A stretch of DNA of 32,018 nucleotides from Parashewanella hymeniacidonis (GTDB taxonomy: Bacteria; Pseudomonadota; Gammaproteobacteria; Enterobacterales; Shewanellaceae). Position numbers and translations under genes: made by a program. Below, in pieces: positions 26,579-32,018 of this stretch (position 1 is its first letter; every line of letters starts with the position of its first letter). The DNA lies in assembly GCF_016900895.1 (NCBI RefSeq), contig NZ_JAFEUN010000053.1, forward strand, positions 1 to 32,018, in the 5' to 3' direction. Below the pieces are notes generated by a model. The model had not been told where the DNA came from. It saw only the letters and a program-made list of their open reading frames with translations, and did no database searches.

Positions 26579-29341
26579 ATGAAAAAGCCATTTAAATTAT
26601 CTGCAATATGTCTGGCTCTTTGCAGTATCGGAATATCTGCACAAGCCATCGCTGTAGGAAAATTTGAAGGAAGTGTGAGAGCTGAACAAAGTAAACAACC
26701 TCTATCAGGTGCTATTGTAACCATTCAAGAACTTAATCAAAGCCAAACAGCAGGCCGTGATGGCCGCTTCTTTTTTAATGGCCTAAAAGCGGGTAACTAC
26801 ACCGTTTCAATTTCATATTTAGGTGTGCCAACACAAACAAGAAAAATTACTGTCACCGATAATCAAACTTCAGATCTCATTGTTGAGCTTGCAGGTAATG
26901 AAATTGAGCGAATTACCGTAACAGGCCATACGGGGTCATTAAGTAAGTCTTTAAATCGACAACGCAGTGCAGATAACCTCGTTAGTGTTATCAGTGCTGA
27001 TGTATTAGGTAACTTCCCTGATAGTAACGTCAGCGAAGCACTACAACGTGTTCCGGGCGTGTCAATTGAACGTGACCAAGGTGAAGGAAGATTCGTCCGT
27101 ATACGAGGGTTAGCTCCAGATTATAACTCTGTATCAATGAATGGTACACGACTACCAGCCCCTGAAGATGATCGCCGTGCTGTTGCTCTTGACGTTATTC
27201 CTTCAGATCTTGTTCAATCGGTTGAAGTCAGTAAAACAATAACTCCTGACATGGATGCCGATTCACTTGGTGGCGCTGTAGAAGTAAAGAGTCTATCCGC
27301 TTTTGATCGCGATGAATTGTTTTTCAATCTATCAGGTGAAGCCAGTTATAACGGATTAACAGAACAAACCAGTCCGAAGTTCGCAGCGAGTTACAGCGAT
27401 ACGTTTAATGAAAAATTTGGTGTGGCCGTTGCTGCAAGTTGGTATAACCGCAAATTTGGCAGCGAAAATGTTGAAGTTGATGGCGGTTGGGATCTAGATG
27501 ACGAAAAGCTAGAAGAAGTCGAAGCACGTAACTATGACATTAACCGTGAACGTATTGGTTTAGGTATCAACCTAGATTACCGTCCAACCGAAGATCATGA
27601 CCTATTCTTACGTTCTTTATACAGTAAATACGACGATGATGAAGTGAGAAATGCATCAGGAGTTGAATGGGAAGATGCAACTGACACGCAAACACTGTCG
27701 CCTGCAGAAGTTAAACGTTCATTAAAGGCCAGAACAGAAGAACAAGACATAACTTCATTTGTACTCGGTGGACAATCAAGATTAACGAAGTGGACAGTTG
27801 ACTACCAAGCTTCCTATTCCCGTGCAACTGCAGCAAAGCCTTTACATATTGGTGGTGCTGAATTCGAAGCTGAATTTGATAAACTGGGTTTCCAAGGTAC
27901 GCAAAAACCGATTATTTTAGCCAATGAAGATTACTATGATGCTTCCGAGTATGAGTTAAAAGAAATTGAAATTGCAGACACACGTTCAACAGACACTGTA
28001 AAAGGTGGAAAAATTGATTTTACGCGTTCATTTGAACTTGGAAAAAATGGTGCTGAGATAAAATTCGGTGCAAAGGCCAGCACAAGAGAAAAAACAAACC
28101 GTGAAGATGTTTGGATTTTTGAAGATTTTGAGGACTTCGGTGTTTCTGAAGACCTTTTATCTTTAGGTGCATACAGTAATTCAACAGTCACCTACGGACT
28201 GAGCGAGTTTGGTCCATCGATTTCAACGGATTCTATTTGGGGCCTAGTAAACGCCATGAATGCGAGTGAGTTTGCTGATGACATTGAATCTAAAATTGGT
28301 GATTTTGACATTAATGAAGACCTTACAGCGGCTTACATCATGGGCACAGTTGATTTTGACCAACTCAAGGTCATTGCCGGTGTGAGATACGAAAACGTTG
28401 ACTGGGACTCTCAAGGCTACAGATTCAATGAAGATGAAGAGTTTATTGCAAGTAACTCTAAACGTTCAGAAGACCACTTACTACCATCTATTCATGTTCG
28501 CTATGAGTTCAATGAGAATACAATTTTCAGAGCATCTTGGACGAATACAATCACTCGCCCAACGTTTGATCAAATTGCACCTGGCTTCTTGTTAGAAATT
28601 GACAAGGATGAAGATAATGAGACTGGTGAAGTTGAGATTATCCGTGAAGCTGAGTTTGGTAACCCTGATTTAAAATCCCTCGAATCAATGAATGTCGATA
28701 TAAGCTTAGAGCACTATTTCGATGGTGTTGGATTATTGAGCGTTGGTGGTTTTTACAAAGACATTGAAAACTTCATTTACGAGGCTGACCTAGCCGGGCG
28801 AAGTGAATACGTTAATTATAAAAAAGCACTGACTTTCGTAAATGGTAATAATGCTGACTTGTACGGTTTTGAATTAGCTTATGTGCAAGAATTTAACTTC
28901 TTATCTGAGCCATTTAATGATCTGTTAATCAATACAAATATCACCTACACCGACTCTAATGCCGAAATCCAATGGTTTGATGATGATGAATTACTCGCAC
29001 GATATATTCCATTACCAAGTCAGTCTGACTTATCTGCAAACTTCTCAATTGGATATGAAAATGCGTATACAAGCGTTTGGCTTTCAGCTGCTTATAAATC
29101 GGAATACCTACAAGAAGTTACTGAAATTAACGATGAAAAGTATGACATGTACGAAGATGATCACTTACAGTGGGACTTCGTTGCGAAAGCGCATATAACA
29201 GAGGCAATGACAGTATATTTTAAAGCTATCAACATCACTGATGAGCCATTTTATAGCTATGCTGGCAGTCGTCGTTTCAACAATCAATACGAAGAGTATG
29301 GCAGAACGTTCCAACTAGGCATTCAAGTAGTTAATTTTTAA
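26579..29341 (+). CDS. TonB-dependent outer-membrane receptor
   Basis: A 920-residue outer-membrane receptor. A Sec signal peptide ends near AQA (residue 23). Residues about 28-105 are a carboxypeptidase-regulatory-like beta domain (LSGAIVTIQELNQSQTAGRD, GLKAGNYTVSISYLG). A TonB-box-like IERITVTG is at 109-116, and a plug domain at about 128-240 contains VSEALQRVPGVSIERDQGEG and VRIRGLAPDYNSVSMNGTRL. The rest is the 22-strand barrel ending in aromatic GIQVVNF. This class (as in Xanthomonas and Alteromonadales) often imports carbohydrates or phosphoesters. The phytase gene begins 10 bases downstream, so inositol phosphates or their products are the likely cargo, by inference. A Pho-box-like site is upstream. 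Confidence 0.93.
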   Translation: MKKPFKLSAICLALCSIGISAQAIAVGKFEGSVRAEQSKQPLSGAIVTIQELNQSQTAGRDGRFFFNGLKAGNYTVSISYLGVPTQTRKITVTDNQTSDLIVELAGNEIERITVTGHTGSLSKSLNRQRSADNLVSVISADVLGNFPDSNVSEALQRVPGVSIERDQGEGRFVRIRGLAPDYNSVSMNGTRLPAPEDDRRAVALDVIPSDLVQSVEVSKTITPDMDADSLGGAVEVKSLSAFDRDELFFNLSGEASYNGLTEQTSPKFAASYSDTFNEKFGVAVAASWYNRKFGSENVEVDGGWDLDDEKLEEVEARNYDINRERIGLGINLDYRPTEDHDLFLRSLYSKYDDDEVRNASGVEWEDATDTQTLSPAEVKRSLKARTEEQDITSFVLGGQSRLTKWTVDYQASYSRATAAKPLHIGGAEFEAEFDKLGFQGTQKPIILANEDYYDASEYELKEIEIADTRSTDTVKGGKIDFTRSFELGKNGAEIKFGAKASTREKTNREDVWIFEDFEDFGVSEDLLSLGAYSNSTVTYGLSEFGPSISTDSIWGLVNAMNASEFADDIESKIGDFDINEDLTAAYIMGTVDFDQLKVIAGVRYENVDWDSQGYRFNEDEEFIASNSKRSEDHLLPSIHVRYEFNENTIFRASWTNTITRPTFDQIAPGFLLEIDKDEDNETGEVEIIREAEFGNPDLKSLESMNVDISLEHYFDGVGLLSVGGFYKDIENFIYEADLAGRSEYVNYKKALTFVNGNNADLYGFELAYVQEFNFLSEPFNDLLINTNITYTDSNAEIQWFDDDELLARYIPLPSQSDLSANFSIGYENAYTSVWLSAAYKSEYLQEVTEINDEKYDMYEDDHLQWDFVAKAHITEAMTVYFKAINITDEPFYSYAGSRRFNNQYEEYGRTFQLGIQVVNF

Positions 29342-29351
29342 GGTATAAGTG

Positions 29352-31238
29352 ATGAATAAGAATAAAACAAAAAATATCTTCAAATATGGATTATTAGCTT
29401 CTCTTGTATCAGCAACACTGGGGATCTCAGCATGTAATGATGATGCATCACCATCAGTACATGCTGAAGCTCAATCTAAACCTATATTTACAACAGGTAA
29501 GGAAAACGCTGTTAAAACCTTGATTGGCCTAAAAGGAAGTCAAGGTGTTCGACTCAATAATGGCTGGTTGCTTGCAAGCGAGAAGTCAGGCTTAGTTTCT
29601 TGGAATGGTGAGTCCGATAAAGGCAACACCATAGCTAAAGGGGAATATAAGTACCTTCAAGCTTCTAGTGATATTGCGATAACGGTTGATACTAAAACAG
29701 ACCGTGTTCAGCCATTTTCAGTTGTAAACGGCACACTGACTAAGCTTGCCCTTATGCCTGAACTTGATTATGAAATAAACTGGGTTTGTTTACAGCCAAG
29801 ACAGCAAGATGGGTTGACTTATGTTTGGCTTGGTGGCGAATCAGGCAACGCACAACAGTGGGTATTAGGCCACAAAGGTAATTGGAATCCAAAATTTATT
29901 CGCAGCATATCAGTACCTATGGGGACACTTAATTGCTCTTTAGATTCTACGACAGATACACTGTATATTGCAGAGCAACAAGCTGGAATTTGGGCAATAG
30001 ATGCACACCCTCAAGCCGTTAAAGAAACTGAGCTTGTCGTTGCAAAACCACACAACACGTTGACTTCCGTTTTTGCTGATGATGGACACGTGTTTTATCA
30101 AGATGAAACTGGGCGTGTCTTTACTGATGGCAACCAAGTCGCTATTAATAAAGGCGATGAAGTTGAAGGATTAACCGTTTTCACTCACAATGAGAAACAA
30201 TCCGTACTCAGCTTCGATGACGAACATGACCTATACCTTCTCTCAAATTGGAGTATGAAGCTACAACCAAAAGATAAAGCAGAGAAGATCCGTGAAATTC
30301 CAGCATGGGTCGAAAGCACGAGTTCAGATCGTGCCGGAGATACTATGGATGACCCTGCAATTTGGGTTAATAAAACATCACCTGCAGACAGCTTGATTCT
30401 AGGCGCTCATAAGCGCTGGGGGTTGTTAGTATTCGATATGCAAGGCAACCAAGTACAGTCTATTGGCACTGGTCGCATTAATAATATCGATATAAGACAA
30501 AACCTACAAATCAATGGTGAAACTAAGAGTATTGCGATAGCCAGTTTGCGTGATGGAGATAAACTTGCCGCGTACGAAATTGCTCATAACGGCCATGTAA
30601 CACAAACTGCAATTTTGGATACACATTTAAATGACATTTATGGCATGTGTTTATATCACGATGGGTCACAGCTATATGCATTTGCAAATGAGAAATCAGG
30701 TAAAACCATACAGTATCGTGTCAATTTTGATACACAAATTTCTATCACTAAAGTACGCGAGTTCTCTGCTCCATCGCAAGTCGAGGGCTGTGTAGCCAAT
30801 GATCAAACAGGTGAGTTATTTGTTGGTGAAGAGGACCAGGGAATTTGGAAGTATGATGCCAATGCTCAAGCTTCATCACAAGGTGAAATGATCATCAAAG
30901 TCGGGGGCCCATTAGTCGACGATGTCGAAGGCCTAGATTTGTATCACGGGAATAACAAATCTTATCTTGTTGTTTCAAGCCAAGGTAATGATTCCTATAT
31001 CCTTTATGACTCTGAAACCCCTTATCAGTTTATAACTCAATTTAGAATTGGGACTAATTTTGATAAAGGTATTGATGGTAGCTCAGAAACCGATGGTTTA
31101 GCTGTTACTTCACTTCCTGTTGGTGACGGCCCTTGGTCACAAGGTATGCTTGTAGTTCAGGATGGAAGAAATCGCATGCCAGATGCAAACCAAGATTTTA
31201 AGTGGATTCCTTGGAGCAGTATCTTTAATAACGATTAA
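29352..31238 (+). CDS. Two-domain beta-propeller phytase lipoprotein
   Basis: A secreted or outer-membrane lipoprotein of about 628 residues that would hydrolyse phytate in a calcium-dependent way. The signal ends in the lipobox GISAC, with Cys28 lipidated. The C-terminal half (from about residue 320) is a full beta-propeller phytase: DDPAIWVNK, LGAHKRWGLLVFDMQGNQVQ, GRINNIDIR, EVEG-type acidic repeats and ETDGLAVTSLPVGDGPWSQG are calcium- and phosphate-binding segments. The N-terminal half (about 45-310) looks like a second, incomplete propeller, as in known dual-domain phytases. The ATG at 29352 is chosen (AAGG 8 bases upstream); a GTG precedes it in frame. It is co-transcribed with the TonB receptor. 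Confidence 0.9.
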   Translation: MNKNKTKNIFKYGLLASLVSATLGISACNDDASPSVHAEAQSKPIFTTGKENAVKTLIGLKGSQGVRLNNGWLLASEKSGLVSWNGESDKGNTIAKGEYKYLQASSDIAITVDTKTDRVQPFSVVNGTLTKLALMPELDYEINWVCLQPRQQDGLTYVWLGGESGNAQQWVLGHKGNWNPKFIRSISVPMGTLNCSLDSTTDTLYIAEQQAGIWAIDAHPQAVKETELVVAKPHNTLTSVFADDGHVFYQDETGRVFTDGNQVAINKGDEVEGLTVFTHNEKQSVLSFDDEHDLYLLSNWSMKLQPKDKAEKIREIPAWVESTSSDRAGDTMDDPAIWVNKTSPADSLILGAHKRWGLLVFDMQGNQVQSIGTGRINNIDIRQNLQINGETKSIAIASLRDGDKLAAYEIAHNGHVTQTAILDTHLNDIYGMCLYHDGSQLYAFANEKSGKTIQYRVNFDTQISITKVREFSAPSQVEGCVANDQTGELFVGEEDQGIWKYDANAQASSQGEMIIKVGGPLVDDVEGLDLYHGNNKSYLVVSSQGNDSYILYDSETPYQFITQFRIGTNFDKGIDGSSETDGLAVTSLPVGDGPWSQGMLVVQDGRNRMPDANQDFKWIPWSSIFNND

Positions 31239-31254
31239 AGGCCATAAAATATCT

Positions 31255-31279
31255 CATCGCCCTATCAACTAGGGCGATG
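31255..31279. terminator. Bidirectional intrinsic terminator
   Basis: CATCGCCCTA, a TCAAC loop and TAGGGCGATG form a perfect 10-bp stem between the convergent phytase and Cys-repeat genes. The plus strand continues ACTTTCAATTACTTTTTAC and the minus strand AGATATTTTATGG, so it probably ends both transcripts. Confidence 0.75.
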
Positions 31280-31287
31280 ACTTTCAA

Positions 31288-31785
31288 TTACTTTTTACTT
31301 CCACATTTTCCTTCATGAGCTTTACGGTTTTCTCCGCACCGACCTTCGCCGCATTTCCCTTCTTGAGACATTTTTCCGCCACATTTCCCTTCTTGAGACA
31401 TTTTTCCGCCACATTTCCCTTCTTGAGACATTTTTCCGCCACATTTTCCTTCTTTACTTCCTTTTTGGTCAACACCGCACTTGCCTTCGCCACATTTTCC
31501 TTGATTTGCTTTACGCTTCGCACCGCAACGTCCTTCTCCGCATTTGCCTTGTTGAGACATTTTGCCACCACACTTTCCGTCATGTGCTTTTTTCCCACCA
31601 CATTTTCCCTGGCCGCATTTACCATCTTTGATTTTATCTGCACCGCCTGAGGATTGATTATCAGCAATTTGATAACCTTGATGAAGTTGATTAAAACTAA
31701 ATTGACTGGAATTTGCTAATGCTACAGGGGCTAAAATAACGGTACCAATAGCGACAGCTATGGCTTTTTTGTTTAATTTACTCAT
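31288..31785 (-). CDS. Secreted EGKCG-repeat protein, HvfA/bufferin-like RiPP precursor
   Basis: A 165-residue low-complexity protein. Residues 1-25 form a Sec signal peptide ending in PVALA. A short ordered stretch follows, then from about residue 53 a Lys/Gly/Cys-rich array. All 13 cysteines lie in [E/D/Q]G[K/R]CG: six EGKCG, two EGRCG, three QGKCG, two DGKCG. HvfA-type and bufferin precursors with a signal peptide and EGKCG repeats are substrates of MNIO (DUF692) enzymes, which turn the cysteines into copper-binding heterocycles; that family knowledge is the basis for the call. No MNIO, HvfC or DoxX gene is adjacent, unlike usual operons, so this copy looks orphan. AGAGG is 5 bases upstream of the ATG. 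An unmodified metal-binding protein is the alternative. Confidence 0.75.
   Translation of the reverse strand: MSKLNKKAIAVAIGTVILAPVALANSSQFSFNQLHQGYQIADNQSSGGADKIKDGKCGQGKCGGKKAHDGKCGGKMSQQGKCGEGRCGAKRKANQGKCGEGKCGVDQKGSKEGKCGGKMSQEGKCGGKMSQEGKCGGKMSQEGKCGEGRCGENRKAHEGKCGSKK
31351..31440. repeat. Three 30-bp tandem repeats inside the Cys-repeat gene
   Basis: The unit at 31351-31380 recurs at 31381-31410 and 31411-31440 with a single change at its first base, and a fourth partial copy follows. Each encodes the ten residues KMSQEGKCGG on the minus strand. Near-identity at DNA level suggests recent expansion by slippage. There are no spacers, so it is not a CRISPR array. Confidence 0.9.
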
Positions 31786-31906
31786 TAATACCTCTTACCG
31801 GAAGAACCGAACAGACTAAGGTGTTGAATAGTTAAATTAAAACAGTACACGAAAAAAGTCGCATTTAAATTGTTATATGGAAGAATTTTTTTAAAAGTTA
31901 AAGAAT

Positions 31907-31980
31907 CCACCTTCTTAGAAGGTGGCTTTGCCTTTCGCCCCCTGTAAGGGGGCTGGTGCTTGCCCTCTTAGAAGGCAAGC
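31907..31980. mobile_element. Three successive triloop hairpins, possible end of an IS200/IS605 (TnpB-type) element
   Basis: Hairpin 1 is CCACCTTC-TTA-GAAGGTGG (31907-31925), hairpin 2 GCCCCCT-GTA-AGGGGGC (31937-31953), and hairpin 3 a 10-bp stem GCTTGCCCTC-TTA-GAAGGCAAGC with one mismatch (31958-31980). Read on the minus strand the run ends in a stem close to a poly-A/T-rich flank, as the right end of IS605/IS1341-type elements, which encodes the omega-RNA of TnpB, often does. The tnpB gene would lie beyond the right edge on the minus strand. A REP-like repeat or structured RNA is the alternative. Confidence 0.4.
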
Positions 31981-32018
31981 TGTTGTCCCCGATATTTATG
32001 AATTAAAAATCAAACCCT

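Follow-up and report, generated by a model that had tools for sequence, protein, structure and literature searches.

By its sequence, a solitary gene near the end of the window (the whole stretch of DNA that we analysed, which is the complete contig C257, 32018 bp, of a 307-contig assembly of Parashewanella hymeniacidonis) encodes a Sec-type precursor of the HvfA family, and this orphan is probably a diverged, relocated paralogue of hvfA whose product is modified in trans by the HvfB and HvfC enzymes (HvfBC) encoded on another contig, C23. A preliminary description of the gene had placed two explanations side by side, enzymes acting in trans from another locus and an unmodified copper sponge. 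We favour the first, because HvfB and HvfC on C23 are intact, the orphan's leader resembles that of HvfA and selection on the gene is purifying; the second is less supported.

The orphan gene and its surroundings

The features on which the argument draws are these:

31288..31785, minus strand: orphan HvfA-family (EGKCG) precursor gene, 165 amino acids, 13 cysteines (open reading frame, NF050137, motif count)
31714..31785, minus strand: Sec-type signal peptide, residues 1-24, its boundary predicted from the residues; aligns to the HvfA leader profile
31666..31701, minus strand: leader motif FSFNQLHQGYQI at residues 29-40, whose counterpart in the genome's own HvfA is FGFEEMKAGYQL (the whole leader scores 43.9 bits on the leader profile)
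31291..31626, minus strand: core array, residues 54-165, with 13 [EDQ]G[KR]CG motifs (motif count, shuffles)
29349..31238, plus strand: convergent phytase gene, a neighbour outside the system (Pfam PF02333, 244.7 bits)
31254..31280, no strand: bidirectional terminator-like hairpin between the phytase gene and the orphan (hairpin search)
31781..31890, minus strand: upstream region conserved with the orthologue in G001, a closely related genome of the same genus (110 bp at 95.5% identity, taking in the gene's first 5 bases)
31895..32018, no strand: end of a multicopy three-hairpin element, at the contig end (8 matches in the genome, two partial)

The position of the open reading frame is exact, with an ATG start codon. 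As the preliminary description had stated, every cysteine of the protein (13 of 13) lies in an [EDQ]G[KR]CG motif, always preceded by lysine or arginine and followed by glycine, so that the orphan shares the repeated EGKCG-type motifs of oxazolin-type precursors; 20,000 shuffles of residues 25-165, which are rich in glycine (35 of 141) and cysteine (13), gave a mean of 0.03 motifs and a maximum of 2. The hydrophobic N-terminus, ending ...APVALA-N, fits the proposed Sec signal peptide when read by eye, and the proposed family link is borne out by NF050137 (KCGExKCG_twice), a curated HvfA-family domain that the orphan matches at 65.7 bits against a cut-off of 19.5. On NF050188, the HvfA equivalog, the orphan reaches 35.3 bits against a cut-off of 95, a shortfall of little weight: the genome's own HvfA, with 80.7 bits, falls short too, and since that protein is encoded beside hvfBC on C23, the cut-off must be narrow. 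A Pfam search with the orphan protein came back empty at E up to 1, and a structure prediction from a two-sequence alignment was discarded (mean pLDDT 37.7, pTM 0.12). One earlier impression did not hold: an array of 13 cysteines is not unusually long, as the genome's own HvfA has 12, relatives have up to 17, and the available text of PMC12452194, which describes Buf_EGKCG/oxazolin precursors, gives 58 for the longest family member.

The gene was rightly described as solitary, ending at the convergent phytase gene and the terminator-like hairpin: neither hvfB (MNIO) nor hvfC (DUF2063) adjoins it, the phytase gene lying on one side and, in the syntenic G001, a tRNA cluster on the other. An Rfam scan of 30000-32018 found nothing at the gathering threshold. 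Together with the TonB-dependent receptor gene that precedes it (window 26579-31238 for the two), the phytase gene forms what looks like a phytate-use pair; the same pair occurs in G001, G002 and G003, and in the latter two genomes no orphan follows the phytase gene.

The orphan's start codon lies 233 bp from the contig end, where its upstream side is cut off. On the syntenic contig of G001 (C37, L049), genes for tRNA-Leu, tRNA-Cys and tRNA-Gly stand about 115 bp upstream of the start codon (L049 8000-8290), with other genes beyond the cluster, and the two MNIO matches of that genome lie away from the orphan's contig, on C51 and C5. The matching tRNA stretch of the window's genome (G000) is on C74, whose agreement with G001 breaks off no more than four bases from the window's own divergence point. 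Because the two contigs leave the G001 sequence at nearly the same place, the three-hairpin element was likely inserted between the orphan and the tRNA genes in the window's strain. The window's copy of this element has a predicted RNA fold of -42.4 kcal/mol (z -3.7), and we presume from its hairpin ends that it is probably IS200/IS605-like; this copy and the four others that were fetched all sit at contig ends, so the element breaks this assembly. The conserved stretch 31781..31890 is the probable promoter and ribosome-binding site of the orphan, and a sigma-70 consensus found no match there. A BLASTN comparison of the upstream regions of hvfA and the orphan gave nothing in common beyond chance-level short matches, and co-regulation is thus not supported.

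Modifying enzymes and EGKCG genes in relatives

The idea that the orphan is modified would fall in a genome devoid of MNIO genes; the window's genome has two. On C23, hvfA, hvfB and hvfC stand in a row in an intact locus, so that an HvfC and a further EGKCG protein are also present, and both enzymes pass their equivalog cut-offs (HvfB, NF003818, 438.4 bits against 360; HvfC, NF050145, 283.4 bits against 142). Beside this row lies a gene that we take to encode a tRNA-dihydrouridine synthase-like protein. The other MNIO, on C93, is BufB-type (NF050167, 385.7 bits, cut-off 310) and is encoded with a BufA2 precursor (136.2 bits, cut-off 60) and a DUF2063 partner. Pfam (PF05114, PF09836, PF22106) is consistent with NCBIfam for the enzyme calls, and two DoxX genes are found on C245 and C94.

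Across 60 relatives, the EGKCG domain occurs in 40; MNIO is present in all 40 of these and in 8 of the 20 others, a co-occurrence that is largely explained by MNIO genes adjoining the EGKCG genes. In the family, the orphan protein has matches in 122 of 126 genomes, HvfB is found in 123 at E <= 1e-60, and every one of the 122 EGKCG-bearing genomes has an EGKCG place at most 3 kb from HvfB. This distance check covered the 150 EGKCG matches listed and one HvfB place per genome (there were 126 HvfB matches for 123 genomes, and the second one of G083, G093 and G115 was left out). Among the matches listed, an EGKCG copy away from HvfB occurs only in G000, G001 and G002, all of the window's genus; G003 and G004, of the same genus, show no EGKCG match outside their hvfA. 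A wider contig search with the orphan confirmed only one relative, Shewanella sp. OPT22. Three other genomes deserve mention. The hvfB of G083 (C1:2993999-2994809), next to an EGKCG gene, lies in two overlapping pieces, one with an internal stop, and is possibly broken; G143 has HvfB (C111:8916-9728), yet the orphan protein matches nothing there at E <= 0.001; and an apparent orphan in G051 was rejected, as its two EGKCG pieces terminate two different contigs, one of them next to the MNIO gene, and are probably one gene split by assembly.

Two EGKCG genes contrast with the window's orphan. That of G002 (L050 8678-9133) occupies another place in its genome than the window's orphan does, beside what we assume to be minE-like and minD-like genes. 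Canonical motifs hold 6 of its 12 cysteines (one of the 12 lies in the signal region), GYQ is lost, and hvfA and HvfB are present elsewhere in the genome; this copy may have ceased to be a substrate. A stretch common to both orphans, KxSQQGKCGEGRCG, suggests that they are of one origin. The second gene, in G040 of another family (L057 7563-7973), has no adjoining hvfB or hvfC and a leader without GYQ, and it adjoins a gene resembling the synthase gene on C23. Its product is a candidate for an unmodified EGKCG protein, in a genome with two MNIO genes, each by a precursor that looks bufferin-like by eye.

Leader, selection and rival readings

The orphan retains the signal-peptide and leader region of HvfA, including FxFxxLxxGYQ. 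We compared it with a profile of 28 distinct HvfA leaders, taken from L002 and from L009-L037 (30 loci in all; two identical leaders were dropped and one leader is cut short). All 28 contain GY, and 24 of them have the full GYQ. The G001 orphan scores 44.0 bits, close to the window's orphan; the G040 protein reaches 12.9 bits, the G002 orphan -0.5, and three unrelated leaders of the window's genome 0.9-1.1, among them that of BufA2 at 0.9 (E-values from this profile refer to eight sequences only). Counting against modification in trans, the orphan's 43.9 bits place its leader well below that of the genome's own HvfA at 77.0, although the latter is itself in the training set. Junger et al. reportedly described in 2026 that the Sec signal of a bufferin acts as a leader.

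The orphan is under purifying selection, leader included. Between the G000 gene and its syntenic G001 orthologue (NG86), dN is 0.039 and dS 0.547 overall, 0.016 and 0.371 in the leader (53 codons), and 0.051 and 0.666 in the core (102 aligned codons), and both orphans keep 13 of 13 motifs although their arrays differ by an indel. Repetitive arrays and a short leader make these sequences poorly suited to a tree.

These results bear on three other readings. That the orphan is a thiol sponge, a paralogue that escaped modification and whose free cysteines bind copper or other soft metals in the periplasm, we consider unlikely. EGKCG genes with a GYQ-less leader do exist, one in G002, which encodes HvfB at another place, and one in G040, where neither hvfB nor hvfC adjoins it, and an array may therefore persist unmodified in some lineages; but the window's orphan has a conserved leader and a low dN in a genome that encodes intact HvfBC, and even G040 retains MNIO genes beside its bufferin-like precursors. 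We regard it as highly unlikely that the orphan is a decaying duplicate without function, a fate that the degenerate G002 copy, with half its cysteines in canonical motifs and no leader motif, and the empty results for G003 and G004 might suggest, but which purifying selection and the complete set of motifs in both G000 and G001 contradict. Modification in trans by the C93 bufferin enzymes instead of HvfBC is hardly credible, for although a BufB MNIO and a DUF2063 partner are encoded there with their precursor, the orphan's leader is HvfA-like, that of BufA2 barely registers on the same profile, and the available text of PMC13097082 keeps Lys-Cys and Cys-Lys precursor groups separate and places BufA2 in the latter.

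If the C23 enzymes do act on it, the orphan's product would be an oxazolin-type precursor, modified by the HvfB-HvfC complex and then exported through Sec: HvfC would bind the leader, HvfB would turn the 13 cysteines into 5-thiooxazoles, and the exported product would bind copper. A separate gene with its own upstream region could let the cell supply more substrate at a different dose or when conditions differ. We further propose, tentatively and with more doubt than conviction, that a single HvfBC pair acts on two substrates from separate genes, that the orphan, with its single-EGKCG spacing and an upstream region of its own next to a tRNA-Gly/Cys/Leu cluster (as in G001), is a specialised second oxazolin with another metal-binding geometry or timing, and that the arrays of G002 and G040, having lost the leader motif, became enzyme-independent EGKCG proteins.

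Published experiments inform the modification of the orphan by HvfBC in both directions. In the portion of PMC13419390 available, HvfBC yields no product if either partner is missing, and full-length HvfA is modified far better than signal-less HvfA, for which the figure is less than one cysteine per peptide, a result that, in its authors' view, is consistent with a leader role for the Sec signal. A conserved leader is nevertheless no proof of recognition, because every single alanine change before the core of a shortened FonA was tolerated and no residue there was strictly required (PMC13097082, available text); Sec export by itself could account for some of the conservation. As to the core, the same text reports that FonBC, acting on shortened FonA, modified a two-repeat but not a one-repeat peptide, that it tolerates alanine, arginine and threonine at position 3 and only glycine or alanine at position 5, and that glutamate at position 1 is not strictly needed, aspartate and glutamine going unnamed there. 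The orphan's 13 motifs fit these tolerances at positions 3 and 5.

Relation to known systems

If the orphan is indeed modified in trans, an adjoining MNIO gene is an unreliable guide to the modification of EGKCG proteins, for which the leader would be the better predictor. The window's orphan (leader kept), the G002 copy (leader lost, HvfB elsewhere) and the G040 gene (leader without GYQ, enzymes not adjoining) offer a small natural test set for recognition by HvfC. Stand-alone MNIO-type precursor genes are, as far as the available text of PMC12452194 goes, already in print: the legend of its Fig. 3, on Buf1, Buf2 and Buf_EGKCG organizations, calls some stand-alone precursors genuine single-gene units with the family unnamed, and its body speaks of unlinked precursors only in the case of Buf1 and Buf2. 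We found no published account of the orphan gene itself in open PMC papers. New here are the genome-wide answer for the orphan, the comparison of its leader with those of two contrasting EGKCG genes, and its restricted distribution.

Set against known systems, the orphan resembles the stand-alone MNIO-type precursors of PMC12452194 in being unlinked to an MNIO gene, although the available text describes neither the orphan nor a retained leader. FonA/fontiphorin and MmrA of Microbulbifer, in the parts of the reports available, likewise carry EGKCG arrays and are modified by an MNIO and a DUF2063 partner, but, unlike the orphan, they are encoded in their own gene clusters. BufA2 on C93, a metallophore precursor with an MNIO and a DUF2063 partner, differs from the orphan in core, in leader and in having its own adjoining enzymes. 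The closest likeness is to HvfA/oxazolin of Haemophilus and the Buf_EGKCG/oxazolin family, with which the orphan shares the Sec signal, the EGKCG-type repeats and the HvfA domain, and to the HvfA of relatives, whose leader F-x-F-x-x-L-x-x-GYQ it also carries; it departs from HvfA/oxazolin in lacking adjoining hvfB and hvfC. Its array also has a rhythm of its own: the cysteines of the core (spacing 5/10/10/5/11/5/12/10/10/10/5/11) fall into doublets 5 residues apart and singles at 10-12, whereas those of the genome's own HvfA strictly alternate 5 with 12 or 14.
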